NCBI RefSeq assembly: GCF_027158205.1
Contig: NZ_JAPVLU010000008.1
Coordinates: 62,001-126,000, forward strand
DNA from: Streptomyces sp. H39-S7
Lineage (GTDB): Bacteria > Actinomycetota > Actinomycetes > Streptomycetales > Streptomycetaceae
Direction: 5' to 3'
Length of the DNA stretch: 64,000 nucleotides
In this document: positions 4,607-37,086 of the stretch, piece by piece
Layout: every line of letters begins with the position of its first letter
Numbering within the stretch: position 1 is the first letter of the stretch
The notes under the pieces: generated by a model
Seen by the model: the letters and a program-made list of their open reading frames with translations, nothing else
What the model was told of the DNA's origin: nothing
Databases searched by the model: none
Program-made: the position numbers and the translations under genes

Positions 4607-4635
4607 TTGACAAGTGTCCTAGAGGTTTCTCTACT
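4607..4635 (+). promoter_or_regulatory. Sigma70-type promoter of the galactan importer operon
   Basis: TTGACA at 4607-4612, a 17-base spacer, then TCTACT at 4630-4635 (4 of 6 matches to the -10 consensus). The start site would lie near 4642, inside the palindromic operator, which is a classic arrangement for repression by steric block. The element is read directly from sequence; its activity is inferred. Confidence 0.65.
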
Positions 4636-4650
4636 GTGAACGCTCACAGT
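4633..4650. promoter_or_regulatory. LacI-family operator ACTGTGAACGCTCACAGT
   Basis: An 18-base palindrome with one mismatched pair near the centre, typical of LacI/GalR operators with a central CG. It overlaps the -10 and predicted start of the operon at 4702 and lies 108 bases upstream of the GH42 start. The 14-base core TGTGAACGCTCACA recurs exactly at 37072-37085 before an ECF sigma gene. The LacI protein encoded at 7922-8944 is the obvious candidate binder. Confidence 0.8.
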
Positions 4651-4701
4651 GCATGGTGGCAGCCGTACCGATGCGGCCGCCCTTGTCAGGGAAGCGAGCC
4701 C

Positions 4702-6003
4702 ATGCGTACCTCTCTCATTGCCAAGGTCATGGCCGGCGCGGTCGGCGCGGCCCTCCTCGCGGGCTGCGGCGGCAGCTCGGACAGTGCCGGTCAGGCGCAG
4801 GACACCGGACCGGTCAGCCTCACCTACTGGGCTTGGGCGCCCGGCCTGGACAAGGTCGTCGACATCTGGAACCAGCAGCACCCGGAGATCAAGGTCACGG
4901 TGAAGAAGCAGGCGTCCGGCGACGACCTGGTCACCAAGATCATCACGGCCGCGAAGGCCCACAAGTCCCCCGACCTGGTGCAGGCCGAGTTCCAGGCGCT
5001 CCCCACCCTGGTCAGCAATGACGTGCTCGCCGACATCTCGAAGCAGGCCGGCGACACGAAGAAGGACTTCGCGGACGGCGTGTGGCAGCAGGCCACCCTC
5101 GGCTCGGACGCGCTGTACGCGATACCGCAGGACACCGGACCGCTGATGTTCTACTACCGCCAGGACCTGTTCCAGCAGTACGGACTGACCGTCCCGACGA
5201 CCTGGGACGAGTTCGCGGCGACCGCCCGCGCGCTGAAGCAGAAGGACGCCAAGAAGTCCCTGACCACCTTCTCCAGCGGTGACCCCGGCCTGTTCGCGGG
5301 CCTGGCCCAGCAGGCCGGCGCCAAGTGGTGGACGACCAGTGGTGAGAAGTGGAGCGTCGGCATCGACGACACCGCCTCCCAGAAGGTCGCCGACTTCTGG
5401 GGCGGCCTGGTCAAGGAGGGGGCGATCGACAACCAGCCGATGTACACCCCGGCGTGGAACAAGGCCCTCAACACCGGCAGCCAGATCGCCTGGGTCAGCG
5501 CCGTATGGGCGCCGGGCGTTCTCACCTCCGCGGCCCCCGACACCAAGGGCAAGTGGGCGATGGCCCCGCTGCCGCAGTGGAAGAAGGGCGAGAGCACGAC
5601 CGGCAGCTGGGGCGGCTCGACCACCGGCGTCACCAACGACTCGCAGCACAAGGACGCCGCCGCGAAGTTCGCCAAGTGGCTCAACACCGACCCCGCGGCG
5701 GTCGCCGCCCTGGTGAAGGAGGGCGGCATCTACCCCGCCGCCACCGCGGCCCAGACCGGCACCGCCCTGGCCAAGGCCCCTGACTTCTTCGCCAACCAGC
5801 CGGACTTCTACACCACCGCCGCCGGGATCGCGAAGAACACCGCCCCCGGCGCCTGGGGACCCAACGTCAACGTCGCCTACAGCGCCTTCAAGGACGCCTT
5901 CGGCAAGGCCGCCCAGAACAAGTCGGAGTTCGGCGGCGCCCTGGGCACCGTGCAGAAAACCACGGTCGCCGACATGACGAAGCAAGGTTTCAAGGTCTCC
6001 TGA
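4702..6003 (+). CDS. CUT1 sugar-binding lipoprotein (probable galacto-oligosaccharides)
   Basis: 433 residues. The signal peptide ends in the lipobox LLAGC (Cys22), so the mature protein is lipid-anchored outside the membrane. The body (SLTYWAWAPGLDKVVDIWNQ, then a PLMFYYRQDLF segment) is that of family 1 extracellular solute-binding proteins. The ATG at 4702 follows AGGGAAG; a longer in-frame version would place extra residues before the signal peptide and across the operator. Two permeases follow with a 2-base gap. Divergence from GH42 and the shared operator suggest it captures beta-1,4-galacto-oligosaccharides, as in gan systems of other bacteria. The ligand is inferred. Confidence 0.9.
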   Translation: MRTSLIAKVMAGAVGAALLAGCGGSSDSAGQAQDTGPVSLTYWAWAPGLDKVVDIWNQQHPEIKVTVKKQASGDDLVTKIITAAKAHKSPDLVQAEFQALPTLVSNDVLADISKQAGDTKKDFADGVWQQATLGSDALYAIPQDTGPLMFYYRQDLFQQYGLTVPTTWDEFAATARALKQKDAKKSLTTFSSGDPGLFAGLAQQAGAKWWTTSGEKWSVGIDDTASQKVADFWGGLVKEGAIDNQPMYTPAWNKALNTGSQIAWVSAVWAPGVLTSAAPDTKGKWAMAPLPQWKKGESTTGSWGGSTTGVTNDSQHKDAAAKFAKWLNTDPAAVAALVKEGGIYPAATAAQTGTALAKAPDFFANQPDFYTTAAGIAKNTAPGAWGPNVNVAYSAFKDAFGKAAQNKSEFGGALGTVQKTTVADMTKQGFKVS

Positions 6004-6005
6004 AC

Positions 6006-6968
6006 ATGACCCCTCACCGACCGGCCACCACGAAGGCCACCCCCGCGCGCGCGGCACGTGTGCGCAGCGCGGGGCCCCGCATCGCGCCGTACGGGTTCCT
6101 CGTCCCCGCGGCCGTCCTGTTCGCGCTGATCTTCGCCCTCCCCATCGGCTACGCGGTCTTCCTCAGCCTGCACAAGGTGGAGGTCAGCGGCCTGGGCCTC
6201 GGCAGGAACGCCCGCCACGAGGTGTGGGCGGGCCTGTCGAACTACACCGGCGTGCTGCACGACGGAGAGCTGCTCGACGGCACCCTGCGCATCGCCGGCT
6301 ACGGGGCGATCGTCGTCCCCACCATGCTGGGGCTCGCGCTGGTCTTCGCGCTGATGCTGGACGCCCAGCGGACCCGGCTGCGCGGCTTCACCCGGCTGGC
6401 GATCTTCCTGCCGTACGCGGTTCCCGGCGTCGTCGCGGCGCTGCTCTGGGGCTTCCTGTACCTGCCCACCGTCAGCCCCTTCCACTTCCTGCTCGGGAAG
6501 ATGGGGCTGCCGGAGCCCGACCTGCTCTCCGGCGGCGCGATGTTCGGCTCGCTCGGCAACATCGCGGTCTGGGGCGGCACCGGCTTCAACATGATCGTGA
6601 TCTACACGTCGCTGCGCGCGATCCCCCTGGAGATCTACGAGGCGGCCCGTATCGACGGCTGCTCGGAGCTGCAGATCGCGGTACGTATCAAGATCCCGAC
6701 GGTGGCGCCCGCCCTCGTCCTGACCTTCTTCTTCTCCGTGATCGCCACCCTCCAGGTGTTCAGCGAACCGACCACCCTCAAGCCGCTGACCAACTCCATC
6801 TCCACCACCTGGAGCCCGCTGATGAAGGTCTACCAGGACGCGTTCGTCCGCGGGGACATCTACTCGGCGGCCGCGACCTCCGTGGTCATCGCCGTGGTGA
6901 CCCTCGTCCTGTCCTTCGGCTTCCTCAAGGCCGCCAACTCCCGCACCACCCAGGGAGCGTCACGATGA
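6006..6968 (+). CDS. CUT1 ABC transporter permease (MalF-like)
   Basis: 320 residues with six predicted membrane helices, the first at YGFLVPAAVLFALIFALPI. The EAA cytoplasmic loop (EIYEAARIDGCSELQIAVRI, around residue 215) docks with the ATPase. It forms the membrane channel with the next gene and receives sugar from the lipoprotein encoded just upstream. It starts 2 bases after that gene's stop and overlaps the next start by four bases (ATGA), so all three are translationally coupled. No ATPase gene is in the operon, as is usual for Streptomyces CUT1 systems that share MsiK. Confidence 0.92.
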   Translation: MTPHRPATTKATPARAARVRSAGPRIAPYGFLVPAAVLFALIFALPIGYAVFLSLHKVEVSGLGLGRNARHEVWAGLSNYTGVLHDGELLDGTLRIAGYGAIVVPTMLGLALVFALMLDAQRTRLRGFTRLAIFLPYAVPGVVAALLWGFLYLPTVSPFHFLLGKMGLPEPDLLSGGAMFGSLGNIAVWGGTGFNMIVIYTSLRAIPLEIYEAARIDGCSELQIAVRIKIPTVAPALVLTFFFSVIATLQVFSEPTTLKPLTNSISTTWSPLMKVYQDAFVRGDIYSAAATSVVIAVVTLVLSFGFLKAANSRTTQGASR

Positions 6969-7888
6969 GCACCACCACCGCCCCCGGCGGCCGCAGCACC
7001 GTCCCCGCCGCCGGGACCACCCCCGGCGCCGCGCAGGGCCCGCCGAAGAGCCGGCGCTCGCGCCGTCCCGGGCTGATCCCCACCGTCGTCCTGCTGGCCG
7101 GCGCCGGATACTGCCTGCTGCCGGTCGCCTGGGTGCTGATCGCCTCGACCAAGAGCAGCCGCGAGCTCTTCTCGACCTTCACCTTCCTGCCCGGCACCGG
7201 GTTCACCCGGAACGTCGCCGGTCTGTCGGCCTACCGCGACGGCGTGTACTGGCAGTGGATGCTCAACTCCCTCTTCTACGCGGGTGTGGGCGCGCTGCTG
7301 TCCACGGCGGTCTCTGCGCTCAGCGGCTACGCGCTGGCCAAGTACCGCTTCCGGGGCCGCGAGTCGATCTTCAACGTCCTGCTGACCGGAGTGCTGATGC
7401 CGCCGGTCATCCTCGCCATCCCGCAGTACCTGCTGATGGCCAAGGCCGGACTCGCCGACAGCTACACCTCGGTACTGCTGCCGAGCATCCTGTCGCCGTA
7501 CGGCATCTACCTCGCACGGATCTACGCGGCGGCCGCCGTCCCGGACGACGTGATCGAGGCGGCCCGGATGGACGGGGCGCGCGAGTGGGGGATCTTCACC
7601 CGTATCGCACTGCCGGTGATGGTGCCGGGGCTGGTGACGGTCTTCCTGTTCCAGTTCGTCGCCGTGTGGAACAACTTCCTGCTGCCGTACATCATGCTCG
7701 GCGACGACGAGAAGTTCCCGGTGACCCTGGGCCTGTACACCCTGCTGCAGCAAGGTGCCTCCGCCCCCGCCCTGTACACCCTCGTGATCACCGGCGCGCT
7801 GCTGGCGATCGTCCCGCTGATCGCACTGTTCCTCGTCATTCAGCGGTTCTGGAGCCTGGATCTGCTCTCCGGCGCCGTAAAGTCCTGA
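6965..7888 (+). CDS. CUT1 ABC transporter permease (MalG-like)
   Basis: 307 residues. A proline- and arginine-rich cytoplasmic N-terminus of about 40 residues precedes six membrane helices, with the EAA loop DVIEAARMDGAREWGIFTRI near residue 200. It pairs with the permease encoded immediately upstream. The ATG at 6965 overlaps that gene's TGA and is preferred over a much earlier in-frame start, which lies inside the upstream coding sequence. The LacI gene follows after 33 bases and probably belongs to the same transcript. Confidence 0.92.
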   Translation: MSTTTAPGGRSTVPAAGTTPGAAQGPPKSRRSRRPGLIPTVVLLAGAGYCLLPVAWVLIASTKSSRELFSTFTFLPGTGFTRNVAGLSAYRDGVYWQWMLNSLFYAGVGALLSTAVSALSGYALAKYRFRGRESIFNVLLTGVLMPPVILAIPQYLLMAKAGLADSYTSVLLPSILSPYGIYLARIYAAAAVPDDVIEAARMDGAREWGIFTRIALPVMVPGLVTVFLFQFVAVWNNFLLPYIMLGDDEKFPVTLGLYTLLQQGASAPALYTLVITGALLAIVPLIALFLVIQRFWSLDLLSGAVKS

Positions 7889-7921
7889 CCAGTACCGCAC
7901 CTTCGCGAAGGACAAGTCCGC

Positions 7922-8944
7922 ATGAGCCGTACAGACCGGCGCCGCCCCCCGACCATCCATGACGTGGCACACGAGGCGGGAGTCTCCCGCGGCACGGTCT
8001 CACGGGTGCTCAACGGCGGGATCAACGTCAGCCCGGCGGCACTCGAAGCGGTCAACGCGGCCATCCGCAAGACCGGATACGTCGTCAACCGGCACGCCCG
8101 CAGCCTGATCACGGGCCGCTCGGACTCGGTCGGGTTCCTGCTCACCGAGCCGCAGGAGAAGTTCTTCGAGGACCCGAACTTCAACGTGCTGCTGCGGGGC
8201 TGCACCCAGGCCCTCGCCGCGAACGACATCCCGCTGCTGCTGATGATCGCGGGCACCGAGTCCGAGCGGCGGCGGATAACGCGCTACATCACGGCGGGGC
8301 ACGTCGACGGGGTCCTCCTCGTCTCCAGCCACTCCGGCAATCCGATGGCCGAGCGGCTGCAGCAGGCGGGCATACCGCTGGTGGCCTGCGGCAAGCCGCT
8401 CGGCAACGCGTCGAAGGTCAGCTACGTGGCCGCCGACGACCGGGACGGCGCCCAGGAGATGGTCCGCCACCTCCACCGTTCCGGCCGCCGCCGCATCGCG
8501 ACGGTCACCGGACCGCTCGACACCCCGGGCGGCGTGGACCGGTTGGCCGGCTACCGCGAGGTGCTCGCCGAAGTCGGGCTCCCCGCGGACGAGCTGCTGA
8601 TCGCCGAGGGCGACTACAGCCGCGCGAGCGGTGAGTCGGCGATGGACCAGCTGCTGGAGCGGGCGCCGGACCTCGACGCGGTCTTCGTCGCCTCCGACCT
8701 GATGGCGCAGGGCGCCATCAACGCCCTGGAGCGGGCCGGGCGCCGCGTACCGCAGGACGTCGCCGTCGGAGGGTTCGACGACTCCCCCGCCGCGCTGGGC
8801 ACGCGTCCCCCGCTGACCACCGTCCGCCAGCCGTGGGACCGGATCAGCTCGGAGATGGTGCGAGTGCTCCTCTCCCGCATCGCCGGTGAGGAGCCCTCCA
8901 CCGTCATCCTGCCGACGGAACTCGTCATCCGCTCGTCCGCCTGA
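7922..8944 (+). CDS. LacI-family transcriptional regulator (GanR-like role)
   Basis: 340 residues. The N-terminal helix-turn-helix (TIHDVAHEAGVSRGTVSRVL) and hinge helix are followed by a periplasmic-binding-protein-like effector domain (SDSVGFLL through GGFDDSPAALGTRPPLTTVRQ). Its ATG follows GAAGGA, which lies in the right half of a small palindrome (7900-7911). As the last gene of the galactan importer operon it is the best candidate to bind the operator at 4633-4650 and thus to autoregulate, with a galacto-oligosaccharide or galactose as inducer (inferred). The second copy of that operator at 37071 suggests it may also control the ECF sigma gene. Confidence 0.92.
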   Translation: MSRTDRRRPPTIHDVAHEAGVSRGTVSRVLNGGINVSPAALEAVNAAIRKTGYVVNRHARSLITGRSDSVGFLLTEPQEKFFEDPNFNVLLRGCTQALAANDIPLLLMIAGTESERRRITRYITAGHVDGVLLVSSHSGNPMAERLQQAGIPLVACGKPLGNASKVSYVAADDRDGAQEMVRHLHRSGRRRIATVTGPLDTPGGVDRLAGYREVLAEVGLPADELLIAEGDYSRASGESAMDQLLERAPDLDAVFVASDLMAQGAINALERAGRRVPQDVAVGGFDDSPAALGTRPPLTTVRQPWDRISSEMVRVLLSRIAGEEPSTVILPTELVIRSSA

Positions 8945-8961
8945 CCCGCGGGCGGGGAGAA

Positions 8962-8999
8962 CCGCTGACCGCGCGCCTGCCGAGGCGGGCGGTCAGCGG
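8962..8999. terminator. Bidirectional hairpin terminator
   Basis: Outer arms 8962-8972 and 8989-8999 pair perfectly (11 bp), and further GC pairs close inside. The hairpin sits in the 48-base gap between the convergent LacI and pectinesterase genes and reaches into the pectinesterase stop codon. Confidence 0.75.
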
Positions 9000-10111
9000 C
9001 ATTTCTGCCACGGGGCCCAGTCGCCGAACCAGTCCGCCGGGGTCTGCGCGGCCGCTTCACCGGCGGTGAGCTGCGGCCGGCTGGCGGGCACCGGGATCGC
9101 CGCACCCGGGCCGGAGTTGCGGTACTCGCGGAAGCGCTGGCTCTGCCAGGGGTACGAGGCCGACATGTTCGCGTACGGCTCGGACGCGTTGATGCCGGGG
9201 CCGAGCAGGCTGTCGCGGACGGTGAGCATGGGGACCGCGGTGGTGTCCGAACTGGGCACCCAGGGCCGGGCCAGCCGGTAGAAGCCGTCCGGGGCCGCGC
9301 TGGTGATGTGTGAACGGACGACGAGGTAGCCGTACGGGGTGGGGCCGGCGGTGCTGGGCGCGAAGACGAAGCCGTACGGGGCGGATGCCAGGTCGGTGCG
9401 GTTCAGCGTGCGGAAGTGGCAGGAGTCGAACACGGCGGTGGCGCGGCCGAAGACGAAGTCGACGTCGCCCTCGGCGTAGCACCGGTGGAAGTACTGCCGG
9501 GCGATGGTGGTCCTGGCCGGGGTGTCGGCGTACAGGGTGTCCTGGTGGCCGAGGAACCGGCAGTCGTGGAAGGCCGCGCGGTCGCCCATCGCCTTGAGGG
9601 CGACGGCCTGGGTGCCGGTGATCTCCGGGTGGTCCGCGCGCAGCCAGTCGTTGGCGAAGGTGAGGTCGCGGGCGGTGAAGCCGTCGGCCTGCACCGTGGT
9701 GGTGGCGGAGCCGGAGGTGCCGTAGGGGCCGGATCCGTCGGGCTTCGGCGTTCCGTTCGCGTGGTCGTACACGATGACGGTGTCCGCCGCGTCGCAGGTC
9801 GCGCCGAGCAGGGTGAGTCCGGTCTTGGCGGCGCCGACGGCGACGGTCTCACGGTAGACGGCCGCGGCCAGGACGAGCGTCCACCCCTCGGCGGGGTTGT
9901 CCGGCGTGGCCGCCACCGCGGCCTGCACGGTGGTGTGGTCGCCGCGGCCCTGCGGGTCGACGTAGAGGGTGCGGTCGTCGCGGCGCCCGGCGGGCGAACC
10001 GTAGCGGCCGAACGGCCGCGCGGGGTGTGCGGCGGGACGGGTGAAGCCGGTGACGGATCCGACGGCCGCTCCGGCGGCGCCCAGGACGGCGGCTCTGCGG
10101 GTGAGAGACAT
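8993..10111 (-). CDS. Secreted pectinesterase (CE8)
   Basis: 372 residues that remove methyl esters from homogalacturonan so that pectate lyases can cut it. The N-terminus MSLTRRAAVLGAAG has the twin arginines and hydrophobic stretch of a possible Tat signal. The CE8 right-handed beta-helix begins at DRTLYVDPQGRGDHTTVQAAV. The catalytic aspartates lie in FLGHQDTLYAD and DVDFVFGRATA, and the substrate arginine in LARPW. The ATG at 10111 has GAAGGAG nine bases upstream. It is the last gene of a minus-strand unit, 76 bases after a pectate lyase, so the two enzymes are probably made together. Confidence 0.92.
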   Translation of the reverse strand: MSLTRRAAVLGAAGAAVGSVTGFTRPAAHPARPFGRYGSPAGRRDDRTLYVDPQGRGDHTTVQAAVAATPDNPAEGWTLVLAAAVYRETVAVGAAKTGLTLLGATCDAADTVIVYDHANGTPKPDGSGPYGTSGSATTTVQADGFTARDLTFANDWLRADHPEITGTQAVALKAMGDRAAFHDCRFLGHQDTLYADTPARTTIARQYFHRCYAEGDVDFVFGRATAVFDSCHFRTLNRTDLASAPYGFVFAPSTAGPTPYGYLVVRSHITSAAPDGFYRLARPWVPSSDTTAVPMLTVRDSLLGPGINASEPYANMSASYPWQSQRFREYRNSGPGAAIPVPASRPQLTAGEAAAQTPADWFGDWAPWQKCR

Positions 10112-10187
10112 GGGGGCCACTCCTTCGCTGGTGGGGAGGGGGCCGGACGGGGCGGGGCGTCCCGGCCCGCCCGGCGGTGTGGTCCGT

Positions 10188-11513
10188 TCAGAGCCGCCCG
10201 GCGCCCGCGCCGCAGTCGACGATGTGCGGAACCGCGCTCGGACGGTCGACGCGGGTGCGCAGCGTGGGGATCCAGCCCGCGTCACCGGCGATGACCGTGG
10301 TGGGGTGGGCGGCGTTGAACGCGCCGAGGAGGTCGGTCTCCTTGCCGTTGACGACGTTGTGCTCCTCCGTCATCGCGGTGCCCTTCCAGTACGCGATGAC
10401 CCGGTCCGCGCCGACCGTCGTGGGCAGGGTGAACGCGTTCGCCTCAGCGACGAGTTGCGACTTGTAGCCGACCCCGAGGCTGTAGACGTACTCCTGGCCC
10501 GCGGTCACGACGTAGTGGTTGTTGTACGTGTCGACCTGGCCGAAGCGGACCCGTGGCGCGCGCTCGGTGATGTTCTTGAACAGGTTGTGGTGCAGGGTCA
10601 CGCGCAGCTTGCCCGTGTCGGTGGCGCCGGCGCCGTCACTGTTGCCGAAGAGCAGGGTCTTGTCGTGGTCGGTGAAGGCGTTCCAGGAGGCGGTGACGAG
10701 GTCGGCGCCCCTGACGATATCGAGCTCACCGTCGTGCTGCTGGTAGATCCGCCCGAAGTAGAACGGCTGGGCGGCGTCGGGGCGGCGGCCGTCGGTGAAC
10801 GTGTTGTGGTCGATCCAGACGTGGGTGGCGCCGTAGACGACGAGGTTGTCGTACTCGGAGTTCCAGTTGCCGGTGGCGCCGTCGGTGGGGTCCCACTGCG
10901 GGAAGCAGTCGAAGGCGTCCTCGAAGGTGAGGTTGCGGACGATGACGTTGTCCGCGTTCTTGACCTGGAGGTCGAGGGCGAGCAGTTTCGGGTGCTTGCC
11001 GACGCCCACGATGGTGGTGTTGGAGCCGACCAGGAGCTGGACCCGCGCCCCCTGCCGGGCGGCGGACGCGGCGCGGGCGTCCTCCTGCGGGCCGGTGGGC
11101 ACGGTGGCGGTGCCCCAGGTGGCCGGGTCGTACGCGGCGAGGTAGGCGTCCAGGGCGTAGCCGTCGGTGGCGTAGTCCGCGCAGCTCAGCGGCTGTCCGG
11201 CGTCGTCGCTGTTGCCGTCGATGGCGCCCTTGACCTGGATGATCTTGGGGGTGGCGTCGCCGCCGTTGAGGGCGGCGGCGAGCTGGGCGCGGGTACTGAC
11301 GGTGAAGGTGTGGGCCGCGTCGGCGGCCTGACCGCCGGTGGTCCCGGTACCGGACGAGGCCCAGCCGTCCCCCGCGGGCAGTGCGGCGCGGGCGGGCGAG
11401 CGGTGGGCTGCCGGGGCAGCCGGCGAATGGGCCGCCTGGGCGGGCGCGGCCAGCGCCAGGGAAGTGCAGCCGATCAGCGCAGCAATTACATGGGCATGAC
11501 ATGTTCTTCTCAT
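10188..11513 (-). CDS. Secreted pectate lyase, PL1 family
   Basis: 441 residues with a Sec signal peptide ending near ALAAPAQA. The PL1 parallel beta-helix carries the signature HVWIDHNTFTDG, Asp-rich calcium-site strands around DAFDCFPQWDPTDG, and the catalytic-region arginines in ERAPRVRFGQVDTYNN. It cleaves demethylated homogalacturonan by beta-elimination. It is a close paralogue of the lyase at 35638-36996: both begin their mature part with DGWASSGTGTTGGQAAD or a near match and share most motifs. A hairpin at 11581-11611 lies upstream, so it may have its own promoter in the 105-base gap. Confidence 0.93.
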   Translation of the reverse strand: MRRTCHAHVIAALIGCTSLALAAPAQAAHSPAAPAAHRSPARAALPAGDGWASSGTGTTGGQAADAAHTFTVSTRAQLAAALNGGDATPKIIQVKGAIDGNSDDAGQPLSCADYATDGYALDAYLAAYDPATWGTATVPTGPQEDARAASAARQGARVQLLVGSNTTIVGVGKHPKLLALDLQVKNADNVIVRNLTFEDAFDCFPQWDPTDGATGNWNSEYDNLVVYGATHVWIDHNTFTDGRRPDAAQPFYFGRIYQQHDGELDIVRGADLVTASWNAFTDHDKTLLFGNSDGAGATDTGKLRVTLHHNLFKNITERAPRVRFGQVDTYNNHYVVTAGQEYVYSLGVGYKSQLVAEANAFTLPTTVGADRVIAYWKGTAMTEEHNVVNGKETDLLGAFNAAHPTTVIAGDAGWIPTLRTRVDRPSAVPHIVDCGAGAGRL

Positions 11514-11580
11514 TGCGGCTCCCGCTGAAGCGAAGTGAACGGGTGGAGGGGTGAACGGACGGGTGGAGAGGCCGGGCCGC

Positions 11581-11611
11581 GGCGGGGCGCCGATGGGGAC
11601 GGCGCCCCGCC
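11581..11611. terminator. Hairpin downstream of the sugar-binding gene
   Basis: Perfect 11-bp arms (11581-11591 and 11601-11611) with a 9-base loop, 7 bases past the stop of the binding-protein gene. It may end or damp transcription before the pectate lyase and pectinesterase, or protect the 3' end of the binding-protein message. Confidence 0.7.
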
Positions 11612-11618
11612 TCCGGAA

Positions 11619-12959: not shown

Positions 12960-13046
12960 GGCGGCTCTTTCGGTCGGGGGATCCAGTCGTGCGTTTCATC
13001 GGGCGGTGCGGTCGTGGGATGCGGTGGTGCGTTGCGGTGGTGCGCT

Positions 13047-16554: not shown

Positions 16555-16559
16555 GCCGC

Positions 16560-18364: not shown

Positions 18365-18387
18365 GACTGGGACTCCTTTACTACGGG

Positions 18388-18399
18388 GTAAGCGCTTGC
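18388..18399. promoter_or_regulatory. LacI-type operator GTAAGCGCTTGC
   Basis: A 12-base near-palindrome with central CG, one base off the perfect GCAAGCGCTTGC found at 23002-23013. It sits 24-35 bases before the permease start. The matching regulator is not obvious in the window. Confidence 0.6.
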
Positions 18400-18472
18400 T
18401 GAAGGGTGTGCGGCACCCCGGACGCCGAACGCCGGGGGCGGTTGAGGTGCGGAAGGGGACTGCGGCGGGCGC

Positions 18473-21823: not shown

Positions 21824-21884
21824 GAAAGTTAGGGCCGTGCCGAAGGTTCGTCAATGCTTTCGACAGAACTGATCCACCACGGCT

Positions 21885-21920
21885 CCGGCCCGCTATGGGA
21901 GCGCTCCCATAGCGGGCCGG
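21885..21920. terminator. 36-base perfect palindrome with a CebR-box core
   Basis: The two 18-base halves are exact reverse complements, so the RNA would form a very stable hairpin. It lies 85 bases past the stop of the PL3 pectate lyase gene and 120 bases upstream of the GntR operon, fitting a terminator for the lyase. Its centre (21896-21909) is TGGGAGCGCTCCCA, identical to the known Streptomyces CebR operator that controls cellulose and cello-oligosaccharide genes. It may serve as terminator, operator for the GntR operon, or both. Confidence 0.65.
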
Positions 21921-22005
21921 ATCAGGGCTGGATCACCGTCGGTCAGGGCCGGCGATCAGCCGGCCTTGCCGGTGCCCGTGCGGACGCCGGCCGCCATGCC
22001 GCCTC

Positions 22006-22836: not shown

Positions 22837-23001
22837 GTCGGTCCTCCATGGGGGGATGGTGAAGGATGCGGCTGCTCACCGTCGTTCATGGTTGAAAGTC
22901 GAAGTTCACGTCCATGAACGATGGGGCCGGTGATGAAATTAGAGAGCAAGCGCGTACCTGTCAATGACCTGAGCATCCCTGTGTCCAGAGGGAGTTGGCG
23001 A

Positions 23002-23013
23002 GCAAGCGCTTGC
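23002..23013. promoter_or_regulatory. LacI-type operator GCAAGCGCTTGC
   Basis: Perfect 12-base palindrome, 166 bases upstream of the PL3 pectate lyase start and 78 bases downstream of the GH51 stop (both minus strand). A degenerate copy, GCAAGCGCGTAC, lies at 22946-22957, nearer the lyase. One base differs from the site before the pectin importer operon (18388-18399), which suggests joint control. Confidence 0.6.
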
Positions 23014-23090
23014 CCTCAGCGCCTTCGGGCGCGCGAAGGCGACCGGCCACGCGAAGTGGTCGGCCGCCGCCGCGCGGGACGTGCTTCCGC

Positions 23091-26359: not shown

Positions 26360-26459
26360 GGGTCTCCCTTGAAAGGTGGGGAAGGGTGGATTCCATGGCG
26401 CGAGGGGGGTACGGGTGGTCCGGTGCCCGACGGGGTGGCGGGCGGTCGTTCGCCCCCGT

Positions 26460-26497
26460 GCCGCACGGCCGCGCGGTCAGGAGCGCGGCCGTGCGGC
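26460..26497. terminator. Hairpin terminator after the arabinose importer operon
   Basis: Perfect 14-base arms (26460-26473 and 26484-26497) with a 10-base loop, 39 bases past the permease stop on the minus strand. It separates the araBDA-importer transcript from the GH51 gene, which then needs its own promoter in the following 100 bases. Confidence 0.75.
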
Positions 26498-26535
26498 TGC
26501 TGGTCGTCCGGTCGGTCAGGCGTGCTGACGCGAGG

Positions 26536-30199: not shown

Positions 30200-30244
30200 G
30201 GGAGCTCCTCTCCTCGGGCCGCTCAGGCTCCGGCCGGGGCCGGG

Positions 30245-30260
30245 GCGCCCCCTGGGGCGC
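30245..30260. terminator. Attenuating hairpin between binding protein and ATPase genes
   Basis: GCGCCCC (30245-30251) and GGGGCGC (30254-30260) pair perfectly around two bases, within a GC-rich run. It lies 33 bases past the binding-protein stop. Such intercistronic hairpins commonly stabilise the abundant binding-protein message. Confidence 0.45.
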
Positions 30261-30292
30261 ACCCGTCCCGGATCACCGGAGCTGTACTGGCA

Positions 30293-31321
30293 TCAGTACT
30301 GGCGGTTGGGGAGCTCTGCCGCTGCCTTGTCCTTGGTGAAGACGCTCTCCTTGGACTCCACCCGGGCCGGTACCTCGGCCTTGTCCTTGAGCTTGCGCAC
30401 GAGGTCCATGACCTGCGGGCCGATCAGCGGGTTGCACTCGACCACGACCTCGATCTTGCCGTCGGCCATCGCCTGGAAGGCGTCCTTGACCCCGTCGATC
30501 GAGACGATGCGGATGTCCTTGCCCGGCTTGAGGCCCGCTTCCTCGATCGCCTGGATGGCACCCATCGCCATGTCGTCGTTGTGGGCGAAGAGCACGTCGA
30601 TGTCCTTGTGCGCCTTCAGGAAGGCCGTCATGACCTCCTTGCCCTTGGCGCGGGTGAAGTCACCGGTCTGGTCCGCGACCAGCTTGAACTTGGGGTCCTT
30701 GAGGACCAGGTCCTCGAACCCCTTCTTGCGGTCGATGGCGGGGGCGGAGCCGGTGGTGCCCTCGAGTTCCGCGATGTTCACCGTGCCGGTGTTGCTCTTC
30801 TCCGCGTCGACCAGCCACTGGCCCGCGGAGGTCCCCTCCTTGACGAAGTCCGAGCCGATGAAGGTCTTGTAGAGGGACTTGTCCTGCGTGTCGATCGCCC
30901 GGTCGGTGAGGATCACCGGGATGCCGGCGGTCTTCGCTTCCTTCAGTACGGTGTCCCAGCCCGTCACAACCACCGGCGAGAAGCCGATGACGTCCACCTT
31001 CTGCTGGATGAAGGTGCGGATCGCGGCTATCTGGTTCTCCTGCTTCTGCTGCGCGTCGGAGAACTTGAGCTCGAAGCCGGCGGCCTTCGCCGCGTCCTGG
31101 ATGGACTTGGTGTTGGCGGCGCGCCAGCCGCTCTCGGAGCCGACCTGGGAGAAGCCGAAGACCAGCTTCTTGGCACCGCTCGCGTCCGTGCCGCTGCCCG
31201 CGGCGGCCTTCTTGCCCGCCCCTCCGCAGGCGGCGAGCGACACGCACAGCGCCACGGCCAGAAGGGCCGCGGCGGTGCCGCGCGTACGGGGTCTTGCTGG
31301 GGTGGAAGCGGTGAGGGACAT
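30293..31321 (-). CDS. Sugar-binding lipoprotein of the arabinose/galactofuranose-type importer
   Basis: 342 residues with a lipoprotein signal ending SLAAC. The body is a type I periplasmic-binding fold (KKLVFGFSQVGSESGWRAAN, then AIRTFIQQKVDVIGFSPVV and LFAHNDDMAMGAIQAI), closest in pattern to YtfQ, which binds furanose sugars. Together with the two-permease layout this hints at arabinofuranose or galactofuranose as ligand. The ATG at 31321 follows AAAGGAGAG. It lies 79 bases downstream of araA on the same strand, so the catabolic and uptake genes are probably one transcript. Confidence 0.9.
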   Translation of the reverse strand: MSLTASTPARPRTRGTAAALLAVALCVSLAACGGAGKKAAAGSGTDASGAKKLVFGFSQVGSESGWRAANTKSIQDAAKAAGFELKFSDAQQKQENQIAAIRTFIQQKVDVIGFSPVVVTGWDTVLKEAKTAGIPVILTDRAIDTQDKSLYKTFIGSDFVKEGTSAGQWLVDAEKSNTGTVNIAELEGTTGSAPAIDRKKGFEDLVLKDPKFKLVADQTGDFTRAKGKEVMTAFLKAHKDIDVLFAHNDDMAMGAIQAIEEAGLKPGKDIRIVSIDGVKDAFQAMADGKIEVVVECNPLIGPQVMDLVRKLKDKAEVPARVESKESVFTKDKAAAELPNRQY

Positions 31322-31400
31322 CGTGCACTCTCCTTTGAGCCGGGAAAAACCCTGCGATGTGTGACCTGGGTGGTACGACTGCGAATTCGGCCGAAGCCGC

Positions 31401-32906
31401 TCAGAAACCTCGCGCCAGGCGGTGGTACGCCTGGTTCCAGCGGATCTCCTTGGTGAACTGACGCATCGTGGTCTCCGCGTCGATGACCAGGAGTTCCGCT
31501 CCGGCCATCTCCGCGAAGTCCTCGAGCTCCTCCGTGCCGACGGCACTGGAGAGCACGGTGTGGTGCGGGCCGCCGGCCGTGAGCCACGCCTCGGTCGAGG
31601 TCCGCAGGTCGGGTCGCGGCTTCCACACCGCGTGCGCCACCGGCAGGTTCGGCAGCGGCTCGGCGGCGGCGACCACGTCGATCTCGTTGGCGACCAGCCG
31701 GAACCGGTCCCCCATGTCGGCGAGGCCCACGACCACCGCCGGGCCCGGGGTGGCTTCGAAGACCAGCCGGACGGGGTCCTCCCGGCCGCCGATGCCCAGG
31801 GGGTGGATCTCGCACGAGGGGACCTCGGCGGCGATCGACGGGCAGACCTCCAGCATGTGCGCGCCGAGGATGACCTCCTGCCCGGCCTCCAGGTGGTAGG
31901 TGTAGTCCTCCATGAACGAGGTCCCGCCGGGCAGACCGGCGGACATCGCCTTCAGCGTGCGCAGCAGCGCGGCGGTCTTCCAGTCCCCCTCGCCACCGAA
32001 GCCGTAGCCGTCCGCCATCAGGCGCTGCACGGCCAGACCGGGCAGCTGGCGCAGCCCTCCGAGGTCCTCGAAGTTGGTGGTGAACGCCTGGAAACCACCG
32101 TCGGTGAGGAACGCGCGCATGCCGAGTTCGATCCGCGCCGCGTACCGCAGCGCGTCGTGCCGCCCGGCCCCGAGGCGCAGTTCGGGCGTGAGCCGGTAGC
32201 TCTCCTGGTACTCCTTGGCCAGCTCGGTGACGTCGGCGTCGGCCACCGCGTCCACCACGGCGACCAGGTCGTTGACCCCGTAGGTGTTGACCGAGACGCC
32301 GAACCGCAGCTGCGCCTCGACCTTGTCGCCCTCGGTGACCGCGACATCGCGCATGTTGTCGCCGAAACGCGCCACCCGCAGGGTGCGCAGCGCCGCGTGT
32401 CCTGCGGCGGCGCGGGCCCAGGCAGCGATGCGCCGGGTCACCGACGGGTCGCTGACGTGTCCGGCGACCGTCTTGCGGGCCACTCCCAGCCGCGACTGGA
32501 TGTACCCGAACTCGCGGTCGCCGTGGGCCGCCTGGTTCAGGTTCATGAAGTCCATGTCGATGGAGCCCCACGGCAGTGCCCGGTTGGCCTGGGTGTGCAG
32601 GTGCAGCATCGGCTTGCGCAGCGCGTCGAGGCCGGAGATCCACATCTTGGCCGGGGAGAACGTGTGCATCCAGGAGATCACGCCGACGCAGTCGTCCGCG
32701 GCGTTGGCGTCGAGACAGACCCGCCGGATCGCCTCCGCGTCGGTGAGGACGGGCAGCCACTTCACCCGGACCGCAACGTCCGCACTGTCGTTGAGCGTCT
32801 CGGCGATCTGCCGGGACTGCTCGGCGACCTGCTGGAGCGTGTCCGGTCCGTAGAGCCCCTGGCTTCCGGTGAGGAACCAGACTTCACGGCCTTCGAGCGA
32901 TTTCAT
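31401..32906 (-). CDS. araA: L-arabinose isomerase
   Basis: 501 residues, the length of the E. coli enzyme. It converts L-arabinose to L-ribulose in the cytoplasm with Mn2+. The opening [13 protein letters not shown] and the active-site block [20 protein letters not shown] followed by HMLEVCPS contain the metal-binding Glu and His of the family. The ATG at 32906 follows GAAGGAG and overlaps the araD stop by one base. The gene order araB-araD-araA is seen here as a tight operon. Confidence 0.96.
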
Positions 32907-33616
32907 CACTGGGCTCCTTCGCGGCCGGCGGGCTGCTGGCCGTACACGTTCTGATAGCGGTCGTAGAGCGAGTCGATGTCCGGCGCGGCGATGCCGACCG
33001 GTTCCCCGAGCTGGCGGGAGATGTGGACGGTGCGGGCGACGTCCTCGCACATCACGGCGGCCTTGACGGCGGCCTTGGCGTCCTTGCCGATGGTGAACAC
33101 GCCGTGGCTCTGCATCAGCACGGCGGGCGAGCGGTGGCCCTTGAGGGTGGCCACGATGCCCTGGCCGATCGAGTCGTCGCCGATCAGCGCGAACGGGCCG
33201 ACGGGGATCTCCGCGCCGAACTCGTCCGCCATCGCGGTGACGACGCAGGGCACCGCCTCACCGCGGGCCGCCCAGCCGGTGGCGTAGGTGGAGTGGGTGT
33301 GCACCACACCGCCCACTTCGGGCATGTGGCGGTAGACGTAGGCGTGGGCGGCGGTGTCCGAGGAGGGGTTGTGGCTGCCTTCGAGGACCTGGCCGTCCAG
33401 GTCGCAGAGGATCATGTTCTCGGGCGTCAGGTCGTCGTAGGAGACGCCGCTGGGCTTGATGACCATCAGGTCGTGGCCCGGTACGCGGGCCGAGACGTTG
33501 CCGGCCGTCCACACCACGAGCTGGTAGCGGACGAGCTCCTGGTGCAGATCACTGACCTGCTGCCGGATCAGCTGGATCGCGGCGGCGGTCGCGGGGTCGA
33601 TCGTGGGGTCGGTCAT
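32906..33616 (-). CDS. araD: L-ribulose-5-phosphate 4-epimerase
   Basis: 236 residues of the class II aldolase/epimerase family. The zinc histidines lie in [15 protein letters not shown], and the phosphate-binding region is [20 protein letters not shown]. It turns L-ribulose 5-phosphate into D-xylulose 5-phosphate, the entry to the pentose phosphate pathway. The ATG at 33616 follows GGAAGG. It lies 21 bases after araB and overlaps araA by one base. Confidence 0.95.
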
Positions 33617-33637
33617 GAGGGCGGCCTTCCGTGCGGG

Positions 33638-35329
33638 TCAGTTGGCGACAGGGGTGCCGGTCTCGTTGCGCAGTTCGCGCAACCGGTGCAGCACGCCCTT
33701 GTGCTCGCCTCCGAGCAGGTCGTGCAGGGCGCGGTACTCGGCGAACAGCCGGTCGTACGCGTCGGCGCGGGCCGTGTCGGGCAGGTACTGGTCCTCGTGC
33801 ACCCGGCCCATCACCTCGGCCGCGGCCAGGACGCTCCCATAGGCTCCGGCCGCCACCGCGGCGTGGATGGCCGAGCCCAGCGCCGGTGCCTGCTCGGAGG
33901 CCGCGACGCTCAGCGGGCGGCGCAGTACGTCCGCGTAGATCTGCATCAGCAGCGGGTTCTTGGTGAGGCCGCCGGCCGCGGTGAAGCGGGTGACCGGGAC
34001 TCCGGCGTTCTCGAAGGCCTCGACGATGACCCGGGTGCCGAAGGCGGTCGACTCCAGCAGCGCCCGGTAGATCTCGGGCGGCCGGGTGGACAGCGTGGCA
34101 CCGACCAGCACTCCGGAGAGCCGGTGGTCGACCAGGACCGAGCGGTTGCCGTTCCACCAGTCGAGCGCCACCAGGCCGTGTCCGCCGACCGGTTGGTCCG
34201 CGGCCAGCCGGGACAGCAGCTCGTGCACGCTGATGTCCTCGGCGGCGGCCTGCGCGTGGTAGACGGGCGGTACGCCGTGCTCGACGAACCAGCCGAAGAT
34301 GTCGCCGACGCCGCTCTGGCCGGCTTCGTAGCCCCACAGCCCGTCGACCACTCCCCCGTCCACCACTCCGCACATGCCGGGGACCTCGGCGACCTTCTCG
34401 CCGTTGAGGATGTGGCAGGTGGAGGTGCCCATCACGGCGAGCAGTTCGCCGGCTCCGGCCGAGCGGGCCGCCGGGGCGGTGACGTGCGCGTCCACGTTGC
34501 CGACCGCGACGGCGATGCCCTCCGGGAGCCCCGTCCAGGCGGCGGCCGCGGCCGTCAGGCCGCCGGCCCGGCCGCCCAGCGGGGAGAGCGGGTGTTCCAG
34601 CCTGGTCTGCGCGAAGTCCGCGAAGCCGGGGTTGAGGGTGGCAAGGTACCCGGTCGCCGGGTAGCCGCCGTTCTGGTGGATCCCCTTGTAGCCGGCCGTA
34701 CAGGTGTTACGGGTCTCGACCCCGGTGAGCTGCCAGACGATCCAGTCCGCCGCCTCGATCCAGCGGTCGGTGCGCCGGTAGGTGTCCGGGTCCTCCTCCA
34801 GCACCTGCAGGGCCTTGGCGTACTGCCACTCGGAGGAGATCAGACCGCCGTAGCGGGCGATCCAGTCCTCACCGCGCTCATGGGCCAGTGCGTTGATCCG
34901 GTCGGCCTGGCTCTGGGCCGCGTGGTGCTTCCACAGTTTGGGCCAGGCGTGCGGCCGGGAGGCGAGCTCCGGGAGGAGACAGAGCGGGGTGCCGTCGGCG
35001 CGGGCGGGAAGGCAGGTGGAGGCGGTGAAGTCGGTGCCGATGCCGATCACCGCCGCGGGGTCGATCCCGGCGGCGGCGACGGCCTCGGGGACGGCCCGGC
35101 GGATCACGTCCAGCCAGTCCCCGGGATGCTGCAGGGCCCAGTCCGGGGGCAGCGGGGCGCCGGTGCCGGGCAACCGGTCGTCGATCACCGCGTGTGTGTA
35201 GGCGTGAACGGCGCTGCCCATCTCGGCGCCGTCCGAGACGCGGACGACGACGGCGCGGCCGGAGAGCGTGCCGTAGTCGATGCCCAGGACGTAGCTGGGC
35301 CGAGAGGGATTGTTAGCGTTAACACTCAT
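33638..35329 (-). CDS. araB: L-ribulokinase
   Basis: 563 residues of the FGGY kinase family, close to E. coli AraB in length. The N-terminal nucleotide motif is YVLGIDYGTLSGRAVVV, with IGIGTDFTAST for substrate binding and a second phosphate-binding segment at FTAAGGLTKNPLLMQIYADV. It phosphorylates L-ribulose. The ATG at 35329 is the only start with a fair ribosome site (GGAAAG). Its first codons (MSVNANN) are the operator TGTTAGCGTTAACA read on the other strand, so a bound repressor would cover the start of the gene. It leads the araB-araD-araA-importer operon. Confidence 0.95.
   Translation of the reverse strand: MSVNANNPSRPSYVLGIDYGTLSGRAVVVRVSDGAEMGSAVHAYTHAVIDDRLPGTGAPLPPDWALQHPGDWLDVIRRAVPEAVAAAGIDPAAVIGIGTDFTASTCLPARADGTPLCLLPELASRPHAWPKLWKHHAAQSQADRINALAHERGEDWIARYGGLISSEWQYAKALQVLEEDPDTYRRTDRWIEAADWIVWQLTGVETRNTCTAGYKGIHQNGGYPATGYLATLNPGFADFAQTRLEHPLSPLGGRAGGLTAAAAAWTGLPEGIAVAVGNVDAHVTAPAARSAGAGELLAVMGTSTCHILNGEKVAEVPGMCGVVDGGVVDGLWGYEAGQSGVGDIFGWFVEHGVPPVYHAQAAAEDISVHELLSRLAADQPVGGHGLVALDWWNGNRSVLVDHRLSGVLVGATLSTRPPEIYRALLESTAFGTRVIVEAFENAGVPVTRFTAAGGLTKNPLLMQIYADVLRRPLSVAASEQAPALGSAIHAAVAAGAYGSVLAAAEVMGRVHEDQYLPDTARADAYDRLFAEYRALHDLLGGEHKGVLHRLRELRNETGTPVAN
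35311..35324. promoter_or_regulatory. AraR-type operator TGTTAGCGTTAACA inside the araB start
   Basis: A 14-base near-palindrome covering part of codons 2-7 of araB. An identical site lies at 40767-40780 before the ChvE-type binding protein, and a variant at 35444-35457. The LacI regulator encoded at 45163-46212 is a likely binder, since a related site lies before its own gene. Confidence 0.8.
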
Positions 35330-35443
35330 GGATCGCGCTTTCCGTTCAAGGTGATGAAGTCGTGGGGTGCAACGGGTGGGGCTGGTCTCCGACGCGCAGC
35401 CGACCACCCCGGAATGTTGCACCGAGGTTACCGACCCCCAGAG

Positions 35444-35457
35444 TGTGAGCGTTAACA
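35444..35457. promoter_or_regulatory. Second AraR-type operator TGTGAGCGTTAACA
   Basis: One base differs from the site at 35311. The two centres are 133 bases apart in the 308-base region between divergent araB and the PL1 lyase gene (35638). Two sites could allow looping and joint repression of arabinose catabolism and a secreted lyase. The rest of this region holds no gene. Confidence 0.75.
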
Positions 35458-35637
35458 AAGGGTGGCGTCAATGCTCCGCGCTGGTCACAAATCGACAACG
35501 TAGGCGGTTCCGCGACGGCTCCGGGTCGGCCATCGGGCGCCCGCGCCGAAGAAATCTCCTGATCGGCGGCAACCTTCCCGGCGGCCGCGGCAACTGAAGA
35601 ACCGAACCCTCACTTCGCACCGAAGGAACGACATCAC

Positions 35638-36996
35638 GTGTCTGCCCCCTCGCACCGCCGCTCGCCGTCCCGACGCCTGATGGCACTCATCGGCGTCGCC
35701 TCCCTGGCGGCCGCCGGCCTCGCCGTCGTGCCCCTGACCATGGGCGCCGGCGCCGCCGCCGTCGACCTCGCGCACGCGGCCCTGCCCGCCAACGACGGCT
35801 GGGCCGCAAGCGGCTCGGGCACCACCGGCGGCCAGGCCGCCGACACCGCCCACACCTTCACCGTCTCCACCAGGGCCCAGCTGGCCAAGGCCCTCAAGGC
35901 CGGCCCCACCGGCGCGCCGCGGATCATCCAGGTCAAGGGCGTCATCGACGCCAACACCGACGACTCGGGCAAGGCCCTCGGCTGCGCGGACTACGCCGCC
36001 GGCACCGGCTACTCGCTCAGCGCCTACCTCAAGGCCTACGACCCGGCGACCTGGGGCCGCGGCAAGCTGCCCACCGGGACGCAGGAGAAGGCGCGGGACG
36101 CCGCGCAGGACCGGCAGGCCGCACGCGTGGTCCTGACCGTTCCCTCCCGCACCACGATCGTCGGCGTGCCCGGCTCGGGCGCGGCGATCGTCGGCGGCAG
36201 CCTCCAGGTGAAGAACGCGGACAACGTCATCATCCGCAACCTCAGCCTCACCGACACCCGTGACTGTTTCCCCCAGTGGGACCCGACCGACGGCTCGACC
36301 GGGAACTGGAACTCCCAGTACGACGCGGTCACGGTCCGCGGCTCCACGCACGTGTGGGCCGACCACAACACCTTCGGCGACGGCCCGCACTACGACCGGG
36401 CGAACCCGTCCTACTTCGGGCGCGAGTACCAGGTCCACGACGGCGCCCTGGACATCACCAACGCCTCCGACCTGGTCACCGTCGAGTACAACCGGTTCGC
36501 CAACCATGACAAGACCATGCTCATCGGGAGCAGCGACAAGGACACCAAGCTGCGGGTGACGCTCCACCACAACGTCTTCCAGGGCATCGTCCAGCGCGCC
36601 CCGCTCGCCAGGGTCGGCCAGATACACCTGTACGACAACTACTACGACACGGCGACGCTCAACAACTACACCCACAGCTACAGCATCAACTCCCGGGCCA
36701 AGGCCCAGATCGTCGCCCAGAACAACTACTGGGCCCTGTCCGGCGGCCGGAAGGCCTCGCAACTGCTCAGCGGGGACGGCACCGGCTCGGTGGCGGGCAG
36801 CGGCAACCTGGTCAACGGCACCGTGACCGACCTCGTCGCGGCGTACAACGGCGAGCACTCCTCCAAGAAGATCAAGACGTCCGTGAACTGGACACCCAAG
36901 CTGACGGCGGGCCTGGAGCCCGCCGCCGGGCTGCCCGCCGCACTCGCCAAGAAGGCCGGCGCGGGCATCCTGACCTCATCGGGAGGCACCTCCTGA
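35638..36996 (+). CDS. Secreted pectate lyase, PL1 family
   Basis: 452 residues starting at GTG with GAAGGA upstream. The signal peptide runs to about residue 40 (LTMGAGAAAVDLAHA). PL1 features: DTRDCFPQWDPTDGSTGNWN, the HVWADHNTFGDG motif (Ala where the paralogue at 10188-11513 has Ile), and QRAPLARVGQIHLYDNYY with the conserved arginines. It shares the DGWAASGSGTTGGQAAD opening with that paralogue, so one probably arose by duplication. It lies divergent to araB across two AraR-type operators, linking pectin cleavage to arabinose control. Confidence 0.93.
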   Translation: MSAPSHRRSPSRRLMALIGVASLAAAGLAVVPLTMGAGAAAVDLAHAALPANDGWAASGSGTTGGQAADTAHTFTVSTRAQLAKALKAGPTGAPRIIQVKGVIDANTDDSGKALGCADYAAGTGYSLSAYLKAYDPATWGRGKLPTGTQEKARDAAQDRQAARVVLTVPSRTTIVGVPGSGAAIVGGSLQVKNADNVIIRNLSLTDTRDCFPQWDPTDGSTGNWNSQYDAVTVRGSTHVWADHNTFGDGPHYDRANPSYFGREYQVHDGALDITNASDLVTVEYNRFANHDKTMLIGSSDKDTKLRVTLHHNVFQGIVQRAPLARVGQIHLYDNYYDTATLNNYTHSYSINSRAKAQIVAQNNYWALSGGRKASQLLSGDGTGSVAGSGNLVNGTVTDLVAAYNGEHSSKKIKTSVNWTPKLTAGLEPAAGLPAALAKKAGAGILTSSGGTS

Positions 36997-37007
36997 CACC
37001 GGAACGG

Positions 37008-37042
37008 CTGCCCGGAACCACCCTCGGACCGGTTGCGGGCAG
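37008..37042. terminator. Hairpin terminator after the PL1 gene
   Basis: Arms 37008-37019 and 37031-37042 pair over 12 bases with one mismatch, 11-base loop, directly after the lyase stop. Confidence 0.55.
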
Positions 37043-37070
37043 GGGGGTTGCTAAGCTGCCGCCTCCACAT

Positions 37071-37086
37071 ATGTGAACGCTCACAT
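37071..37086. promoter_or_regulatory. LacI-family operator ATGTGAACGCTCACAT
   Basis: The core TGTGAACGCTCACA is identical to that at 4635-4648 before the galactan importer. Here it lies four bases before the ribosome site of the ECF sigma gene. No convincing sigma70 promoter was found nearby, so the start site is unknown. Confidence 0.75.

Follow-up and report, generated by a model that had tools for sequence, protein, structure and literature searches.

A sequence of 14 bases, TGTGAACGCTCACA, occurs twice in a 64,000-nucleotide stretch of the genome of Streptomyces sp. H39-S7 (contig NZ_JAPVLU010000008.1, positions 62,001 to 126,000; hereafter the window): once over the promoter of a sugar ATP-binding cassette (ABC) importer that is linked to a GH42 enzyme, and once, some 32 kb away, directly before the gene of an extracytoplasmic function (ECF) sigma factor. 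The sequence is of the type bound by LacI-family regulators, and the question is which regulator, responding to which sugar, acts at the sigma gene. The original prediction named the LacI-family protein encoded at 7922 (here gLacI) as the natural binder of both copies, with galacto-oligosaccharide as the signal for the sigma factor. We argue that the site at the ECF gene belongs to the L-arabinose gene set, and that its likely binder is a different LacI-family regulator, LacI45, encoded beside the ara genes (coordinates of all features are given in Table 1).

A scan of the window returned the exact 14-mer at both coordinates, each time on the forward strand, and confirmed the setting described for each copy. 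The 4635 site begins on the final base of a -10-like TCTACT (4630-4635), which is separated by a spacer of 17 from a -35-like TTGACA (4607-4612); the 37072 site is followed, after 6 bases, by the ribosome-site-like GGAGAGG of the ECF gene. The ECF operon does lie inside a pectinolytic locus, being flanked by genes for a pectate lyase (PL1) and a pectate lyase-pectinesterase fusion (PLPME). Genome-wide (9,543,752 bases in 146 contigs), the two copies in the window are the only exact ones, and a reversed control pattern is absent. Allowing one mismatch adds two places, both TGTTAACGCTCACA, one in the window (35444-35457) and one on another contig (C96:30549). With up to three mismatches and both strands counted, the window contains 18 matches where 5.5 are expected, a number reached by none of 100 shuffles. 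Many unrelated copies had been named as grounds for abandoning the original prediction; given just two exact copies genome-wide, those grounds do not exist. Shuffles, genome count and conservation tests together lead us to reject chance as an explanation of the two-site match: two exact copies in 9.54 Mb, each kept in place at its gene across many species, make coincidence vanishingly improbable. The window also holds a second family of LacI-type sites (at 35311, 35444, 40767 and 46252) together with a second LacI gene (45163-46266), neither of which figured in the original prediction, and its sugar genes form two blocks, at 2516-8944 and 31401-48861.

The sigma factor contains domains PF04542 and PF08281 (regions 2 and 4) and scores 163.8 bits against TIGR02983, for which the cut-off is 141.55. 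The 37072 site starts 14 bases 3' of a -10-like TAAGCT (37052-37057); TGNTANNCT-like letters, identified by eye, reappear directly 5' of the operator in relatives. LacI-type sites downstream of the -10 element are read as repression in bifidobacteria, in the available portion of PMC5928203. The position of the 37072 site, past the -10-like element and before the ribosome site, suits repression in the same manner, and repression is accordingly the mode that we propose.

Conservation of the operator was assessed among relatives of the ECF factor. The best 80 of 509 relatives gave 79 named loci with 81 ECF copies, and 26 further relatives of the same genus brought the number compared to 108. An operator is present at the ECF gene in 27 of the 108, mostly as TGTTAACGC(T/G/A)CACA, with its end approximately 24-38 bases before the aligned start. 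The exact 14-mer stands at the ECF gene in the three closest species (that of the window, S. fildesensis and Streptomyces sp. SPB162); elsewhere, including in Kitasatospora, Streptacidiphilus and Kribbella, the sites read TGTTAACGCTCACA, TGTTAACGCGCACA, TGTTAACGCACACA or close variants. Across the 27 loci the majority base averages 92% in the operator columns as against 52% in the upstream flank. Searching positions -80 to -20 of the 81 copies for TGTKAACGCKCACA gave 14 exact matches, 22 with up to one mismatch and 25 with up to two, compared to none in two control windows; patterns obtained by permutation (300 each) gave none at one mismatch and a mean of 0.1 (maximum 7) at two.

Two other arrangements were seen upstream of ECF relatives. 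In 13 loci (L047, L060, L064, L066, L068, L069, L071, L072, L078, L079, L086, L090 and L100) a GTTGTTAAACGCGCAAC(C/T)AACGCGCACATCATTGCC-like sequence lies directly 5' of the ECF gene; it resembles the operator with about 12 extra bases, and a different regulator may act there. In a branch that has no arabinose-type operator a palindrome, CAAGCGCTTG, is found at the ECF -10 region (L062:9801, L073:9894 and L084:9876).

The case for gLacI differs between the two copies. Orthologs of gLacI are present in 91 of 297 genomes of the family, and of 17 of their loci that were read, 13 have exact TGTGAACGCTCACA upstream of the importer and the remaining four have TGTGAACG-type variants. The 4635 site is therefore most simply the operator of gLacI, and to this extent the original assignment stands. 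For the ECF site there is a natural deletion. The genome of S. fildesensis (in 470 contigs, 100% complete) can be followed along the window to 2413 and again from 10150, such that positions 2414-10149, with the GH42, importer and LacI genes, are absent as one block with one junction. A search of this genome for a gLacI ortholog found none, the best relative (47%) being at the level of paralogs in the window's own genome, yet its ECF site is the exact 14-mer, the sole exact copy that it contains, while bases farther upstream have diverged. LacI45 is retained at 96% identity, with its sites. The ECF site thus shows no dependence on the presence of gLacI, and gLacI is not what keeps it. In favor of control of the sigma gene by gLacI alone, with galacto-oligosaccharide as the signal, are operators that are letter-identical and unique in the genome, the exact 14-mer that orthologs maintain at the importer, and a recognition helix (RG) unlike the HQ of LacI45. 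We nevertheless consider it very unlikely on account of the S. fildesensis deletion; moreover, most other operator-bearing ECF relatives carry TGTTAACG-type sites like those of the arabinose set. The same two observations leave galacto-oligosaccharide unsupported as the signal at the ECF gene, for which L-arabinose through LacI45 is the likelier one. Of the idea of one operator common to importer and sigma gene, the identity of letters survives, with the two copies most likely answering to different regulators.

The operator type seen at the sigma gene is shared with genes for L-arabinose catabolism and import and with arabinoside genes. In three loci (L038, L044 and L045) the 14-mer of the importer is identical to that of the ECF gene and lies on the opposite strand; araB has the same sequence or a one-base variant. 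All ten loci (including the window) in which the identity of a ChvE-type substrate-binding protein (SBP) is 78% or more and the upstream sequence can be read have a site at both importer and ECF gene; all four with a relative of 64-66% have a site at neither. The relationship was further examined in 12 of the 27 operator-bearing cases, chosen mostly with the ECF gene away from the ara genes (one, G307, being S. fildesensis again). Each of the 12 genomes has further TGTTARCGCKMACA sites, 4 to 21 per genome on both strands, compared to none for the reversed control. Neighborhoods were inspected for 25 site loci and nine further regions. Three of the 25 are simply the ECF site; among the remaining 22, genes for araB, a ChvE-type SBP, a LacI45-like regulator, GH127 or alpha-L-arabinofuranosidase are found next to 19. 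Pfam, applied to three of the four presumed alpha-L-arabinofuranosidases, confirmed alpha-L-arabinofuranosidase B at L212 (Kribbella), L226 and L236, while that at L219 was named by eye; the proteins at L216 and L231 were assigned to GH127 on 26% and 37% identity. Neighbors in the nine further regions are the importer, araBDA, GH127 and LacI45-like genes, with some sites by other secreted proteins.

In the window's own genome, TGTTAACGCTAACA has 13 strand-matches at up to two mismatches, against 2 for the control. Among them C96:30549 lies about 400 bases 5' of a GH127 beta-L-arabinofuranosidase gene and C96:51463 (L150:9464) within a GH30-like gene, at its start. As a side observation, TGTTAACGCTAACA has three exact sites in this genome, of which two fall within first codons, those of araB and of the GH30-like enzyme. 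The composition of this site set makes LacI45, rather than gLacI, the likely binder at the ECF gene.

LacI45 has both PF00356 and PF13377 above cut-off, that is, DNA-binding and sugar-binding domains. At the recognition-helix residues it carries HQ and gLacI carries RG; E. coli LacI carries YQ and reads TG halves, so the Q of LacI45 at the main position would be compatible with TGTG halves. The pairing of residues 15-16 with bases 4-5 of the half-site is taken from the LacI recognition code, as given in the available text of PMC2978694; under this pairing HQ and RG could recognize different half-sites. The helix SHQTVSRVL was present in all nine loci in which that of a LacI45/LacI47-type regulator was found. 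Another regulator of the HQ type could accordingly be the binder, the obvious candidate being LacI47, which has the identical helix and adjoins the ara genes. The site upstream of LacI47 itself is of a different kind (TGTGATCGTGAACA at 48734-48747; upstream of LacI47 relatives it recurs at L035:19511 and, as TGTGATCGCGAACA, at L050:4826) despite the shared helix, and we judge its involvement at the ECF gene to be unlikely.

The output of the sigma factor is suggested by a paired motif, GGCAACC-N14-GGYRACTG, whose only exact copies in the genome are those upstream of PL1 and PLPME. In the 79 named loci (1,480,044 bases) a spacer of 14 gave 46 exact matches in 33 loci and a spacer of 15 gave two; spacers of 6-13 and 16-23 gave none. 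The spacing is thus fixed, at 14 in 46 of 48 exact matches, as for a candidate -35/-10 pair, and shuffling the motif halves (200 shuffles over the same loci) produced a mean of 0.035 matches and a maximum of 2. In the family as a whole the GGCAACCT form has 94 sites in 64 of the 297 genomes (reversed control, 3), and these concentrate near ECF relatives: at least 34 of the 94 have a listed relative no more than 5 kb away, where about 0.12 would be expected.

Ten genes behind the motif, assigned by Pfam, have products that act on the wall or resemble expansins: pectate lyase, expansin-like DPBB, GH10-GH62, BNR/ricin-lectin and PL9-like proteins; two of them (L198 and L050:8922) stand behind one-mismatch motifs. 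The BNR/ricin-lectin proteins we take to be GH74-like. An expansin-like gene of the window's genome (C63:8465) has the motif with one mismatch, in the GGCCACTG form that also occurs at PL1 of G020/L036, and is a weaker member. Two local arrangements are of separate interest. In L089 and L101 two ECF copies flank a single pectate lyase gene, with one copy per locus bearing the operator. In S. fildesensis the PLPME gene (window ~38655-40683) is gone, and its GGCAACC-N14-GGTGACTG is retained, now about 400 bases 5' of the ChvE-type SBP gene (L035:11443).

The second gene of the ECF operon begins at, or overlaps, the stop codon of the sigma gene. Its product is predicted to have short N-terminal helices, a hydrophobic stretch (by eye), a Pro/Ser/Thr linker and a C-terminal beta-sandwich. 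A relative is present in 75 of the 79 named loci; the other four comprise three contigs that end soon after and one locus (L046) with a masked stretch. An AlphaFold2 model, built from 38 sequences (the window's partner and 37 of the 81 from the named loci, near-copies, cut sequences and other-frame picks being excluded), shows two N-terminal helices, a middle part of low confidence and the C-terminal sandwich, with a mean pLDDT of 72.7 and values of 80-98 for blocks of residues 151-280. Pfam and NCBIfam gave no match for the partner, and neither Pfam nor Foldseek matched its outside domain to a carbohydrate-binding module: Foldseek returned generic beta-sandwiches alone (AP2 mu, YcnI), with no known carbohydrate-binding fold among them. 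The partner is a candidate anti-sigma factor or sensor. In S. fildesensis its reading frame is interrupted (L035:10528-11365), while operator and sigma gene are both intact.

From the operator with its conservation, the shared set of sites, and the paired motif with its concentration near ECF genes, we infer a circuit that we regard as probable. LacI45 would repress the ECF operon (37104-38500) at the 37072 operator; L-arabinose, as released from pectin and arabinan, would act as effector and relieve this repression; and the sigma factor, once made, would read the paired motif and start transcription of the flanking PL1 and PLPME genes. The outcome would be a feed-forward loop, in which a breakdown product induces enzymes that release more of the same product. 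The partner protein, acting as anti-sigma factor or sensor, may provide a second gate. An extended version, a two-key switch, is more speculative: LacI45 and intracellular arabinose would gate transcription, the partner, as a membrane protein, would free the sigma factor only on contact of its outside beta-sandwich with wall polymer, and in the window's lineage identity with the operator of the galactan regulator would add a second sugar. We hold this version to be possible but doubtful.

A number of observations weigh against this circuit. The ECF site of the window, like that of the two relatives closest to it, is TGTG/TGTG, while the others are mostly TGTT/TGTG; the TGTT half-site expected of the arabinose regulon is not found at the window's ECF operator, which differs by two changes from the best sites of LacI45 itself and by none from the gLacI operator. 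That identity, and the single mismatch that separates the ECF site from the araB-distal site, could mean that LacI45 and gLacI both bind the ECF site where both exist, arabinose and galacto-oligosaccharide both being required. One further genome (G020) has both regulators and both exact sites, about 33.5 kb apart. S. fildesensis, however, keeps the site without the second LacI protein, so dual control is not what maintains it, and both exact sites are seen in two genomes alone (G000 and G020); we view dual control as a tentative alternative, with the odds clearly against it. The operator wiring of the ECF gene is also not universal: 81 of the 108 relatives lack such a site, including all 26 of the same genus, at 73-79%. 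In a FastTree tree of the 108 ECF proteins the operator requires five changes. The window and these two closest relatives form a supported clade (99), placed with weak support apart from the main operator-bearing group and beside the operator-less L043 and L087; their site may be an independent gain, and since the placement is weak both retention and independent gain are possible. Operator and ara-gene neighbor are associated (12/14/1/50, Fisher p 2.7e-6, 77 loci of at least 10 kb) in a test that ignores kinship, and a kinship-controlled test had too few independent pairs. The operator-bearing ECF copy in L089 and L101 is not followed by a partner gene. Finally, three of the 25 inspected site loci (L221, L222 and L229) have no arabinose-type neighbor, and a two-mismatch site in the window's genome (C91:28921) lies by unrelated genes.

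To these are added two observations on the output. Sites with one mismatch to the paired motif are no more common than matches to the reversed control (11 against 17 in the window's genome, 14 against 16 and 6 against 17 in two relatives), for which reason our counts were restricted to exact sites; and for 60 of the 94 GGCAACCT sites no listed ECF relative is located within 5 kb. Both would fit a reading in which a different sigma factor recognizes the motif and the ECF factor controls something else. This we think improbable, given that all five exact sites in the three closest genomes are no more than 1.6 kb from the ECF gene, and that presence of the motif tracks the gene: the GGCAACCT form occurs in 59 of 157 genomes that bear an ECF relative (E 1e-58) and in 5 of 140 that do not.

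CebR, a LacI-family local repressor of streptomycete sugar operons, responds to sugar and represses an adjacent importer and hydrolase, a sugar-responsive local repression like that proposed for gLacI. We know of no such repressor acting on an ECF sigma gene; ECF sigma factors are usually viewed as gated by anti-sigma proteins. In Clostridium thermocellum the anti-sigma side is RsgI (SigI/RsgI-type). The sigma/anti-sigma systems of this organism and the ECF/anti-sigma pairs of Bacteroides resemble the present one in that an alternative sigma factor and a membrane partner control polysaccharide-degrading enzymes; as described in the available parts of PMC10766802, their input is extracellular glycan acting on the membrane protein, whereas here an intracellular sugar repressor is predicted as an additional gate. 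ECF52 proteins of Streptomyces, such as SCO4117, likewise combine a sigma factor with membrane and possible carbohydrate-binding parts, but do so in one fused protein where the window has two genes (available portions of PMC5826349 and PMC10766802). On the regulator side a likeness is seen in AraQ, which belongs to the LacI family and regulates arabinose genes in bifidobacteria; its predicted sites precede araBDA and arabinoside genes, as proposed for LacI45, and its core regulon, in the available portion of PMC5928203, lists central-metabolism genes and names no sigma factor. Neither "sigma" nor "arabinose" occurs in the main text of PMC4052901, so far as that text was available. Taken singly, both LacI repressors and ECF factors are familiar; their connection is what is new, within the literature searched. 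No circuit that joins the two in wall degradation was found described in the open-licence full-text literature, in agreement with the original prediction that sugar-LacI control of an ECF factor in this setting was undescribed.

If the circuit is correct, an intracellular sugar repressor gates the ECF gene itself and joins pentose catabolism to secreted wall-degrading enzymes, a predicted link that spans Streptomyces, Kitasatospora, Streptacidiphilus and Kribbella. It would supply a predicted input and a predicted output motif for a widespread ECF family (157 of the 297 family genomes), for which no such role was found in the literature searched, and an inducible route to secretion of pectinase, expansin and hemicellulase.

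Table 1. Features of the window, by position.
Feature	Position	Strand	Remarks
GH42 beta-galactosidase-family enzyme	2516..4525	-	
TGGGAACGTGCACA, second site, GH42 side	4546..4559	+	relatives keep TGGGAACGTGCACA, TGTGAACGTGCACA or close variants
TGTGAACGCTCACA, predicted operator of GH42-linked importer	4635..4648	+	assigned to 7922 LacI; exact in 13/17 relatives' loci
GH42-linked sugar ABC importer	4702..7888	+	SBP; two permeases assigned by position and sequence
gLacI, GH42-linked LacI-family regulator	7922..8944	+	recognition helix SRGTVSRVL; binder in the original prediction
araA (L-arabinose isomerase)	31401..32906	-	approximate start
araD (L-ribulose-5-phosphate 4-epimerase)	32906..33616	-	
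araB (ribulokinase)	33638..35329	-	
TGTTAACGCTAACA, araB-proximal site	35311..35324	-	within first codons of araB
TGTTAACGCTCACA, araB-distal site	35444..35457	-	also 5' of PL1; identical to ECF operator 14-mer of several other species
Predicted ECF-type promoter of PL1	35568..35596	+	GGCAACC-N14-GGCAACTG
PL1, pectate lyase	35638..36996	+	Pectate_lyase_4
TGCTAAGCT, extended -10-like element of ECF operon	37049..37057	+	by eye
TGTGAACGCTCACA, LacI-type operator sequence of ECF operon	37072..37085	+	exact in 3 species; variants at 27/108 ECF relatives
GGAGAGG, ribosome-site-like, of ECF gene	37092-37098	+	
ECF sigma factor gene, SigE-family	37104..37646	+	TIGR02983 above cut-off
Partner, second gene of ECF operon	37646..38500	+	candidate anti-sigma factor or sensor
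Predicted ECF-type promoter of PLPME	38543..38571	+	GGCAACC-N14-GGTGACTG
PLPME, pectate lyase-pectinesterase fusion	38614..40674	+	
TGTTAACGCTAACA, site at ChvE-type importer promoter	40767..40780	-	
ChvE-GguA-type sugar ABC importer	40898..45045	+	ChvE and GguA above cut-off; permease by position; SBP ~40898-42091, ATPase 42232-43788, permease 43792-45045
LacI45, LacI-family regulator	45163..46266	-	helix SHQTVSRVL; proposed ECF-site binder; start codon uncertain
TGTTAACGATAACA, between LacI45 and lactone oxidase gene	46252..46265	+	proposed autoregulation
LacI47, LacI-family regulator	47620-48861		helix SHQTVSRVL; next to ara genes

One further candidate operator in the window was considered and rejected. 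TGGGAGCGCTCCCA at 21896, which has the letters of the CebR box, was weighed as an operator of CebR type. It forms the center of a perfect palindrome of 38 bases (21884-21921), with a pectate lyase gene (PF03211) on one side and, on the same strand, a GntR-like gene (named by eye) on the other; its appearance is that of a terminator hairpin and not of an operator.

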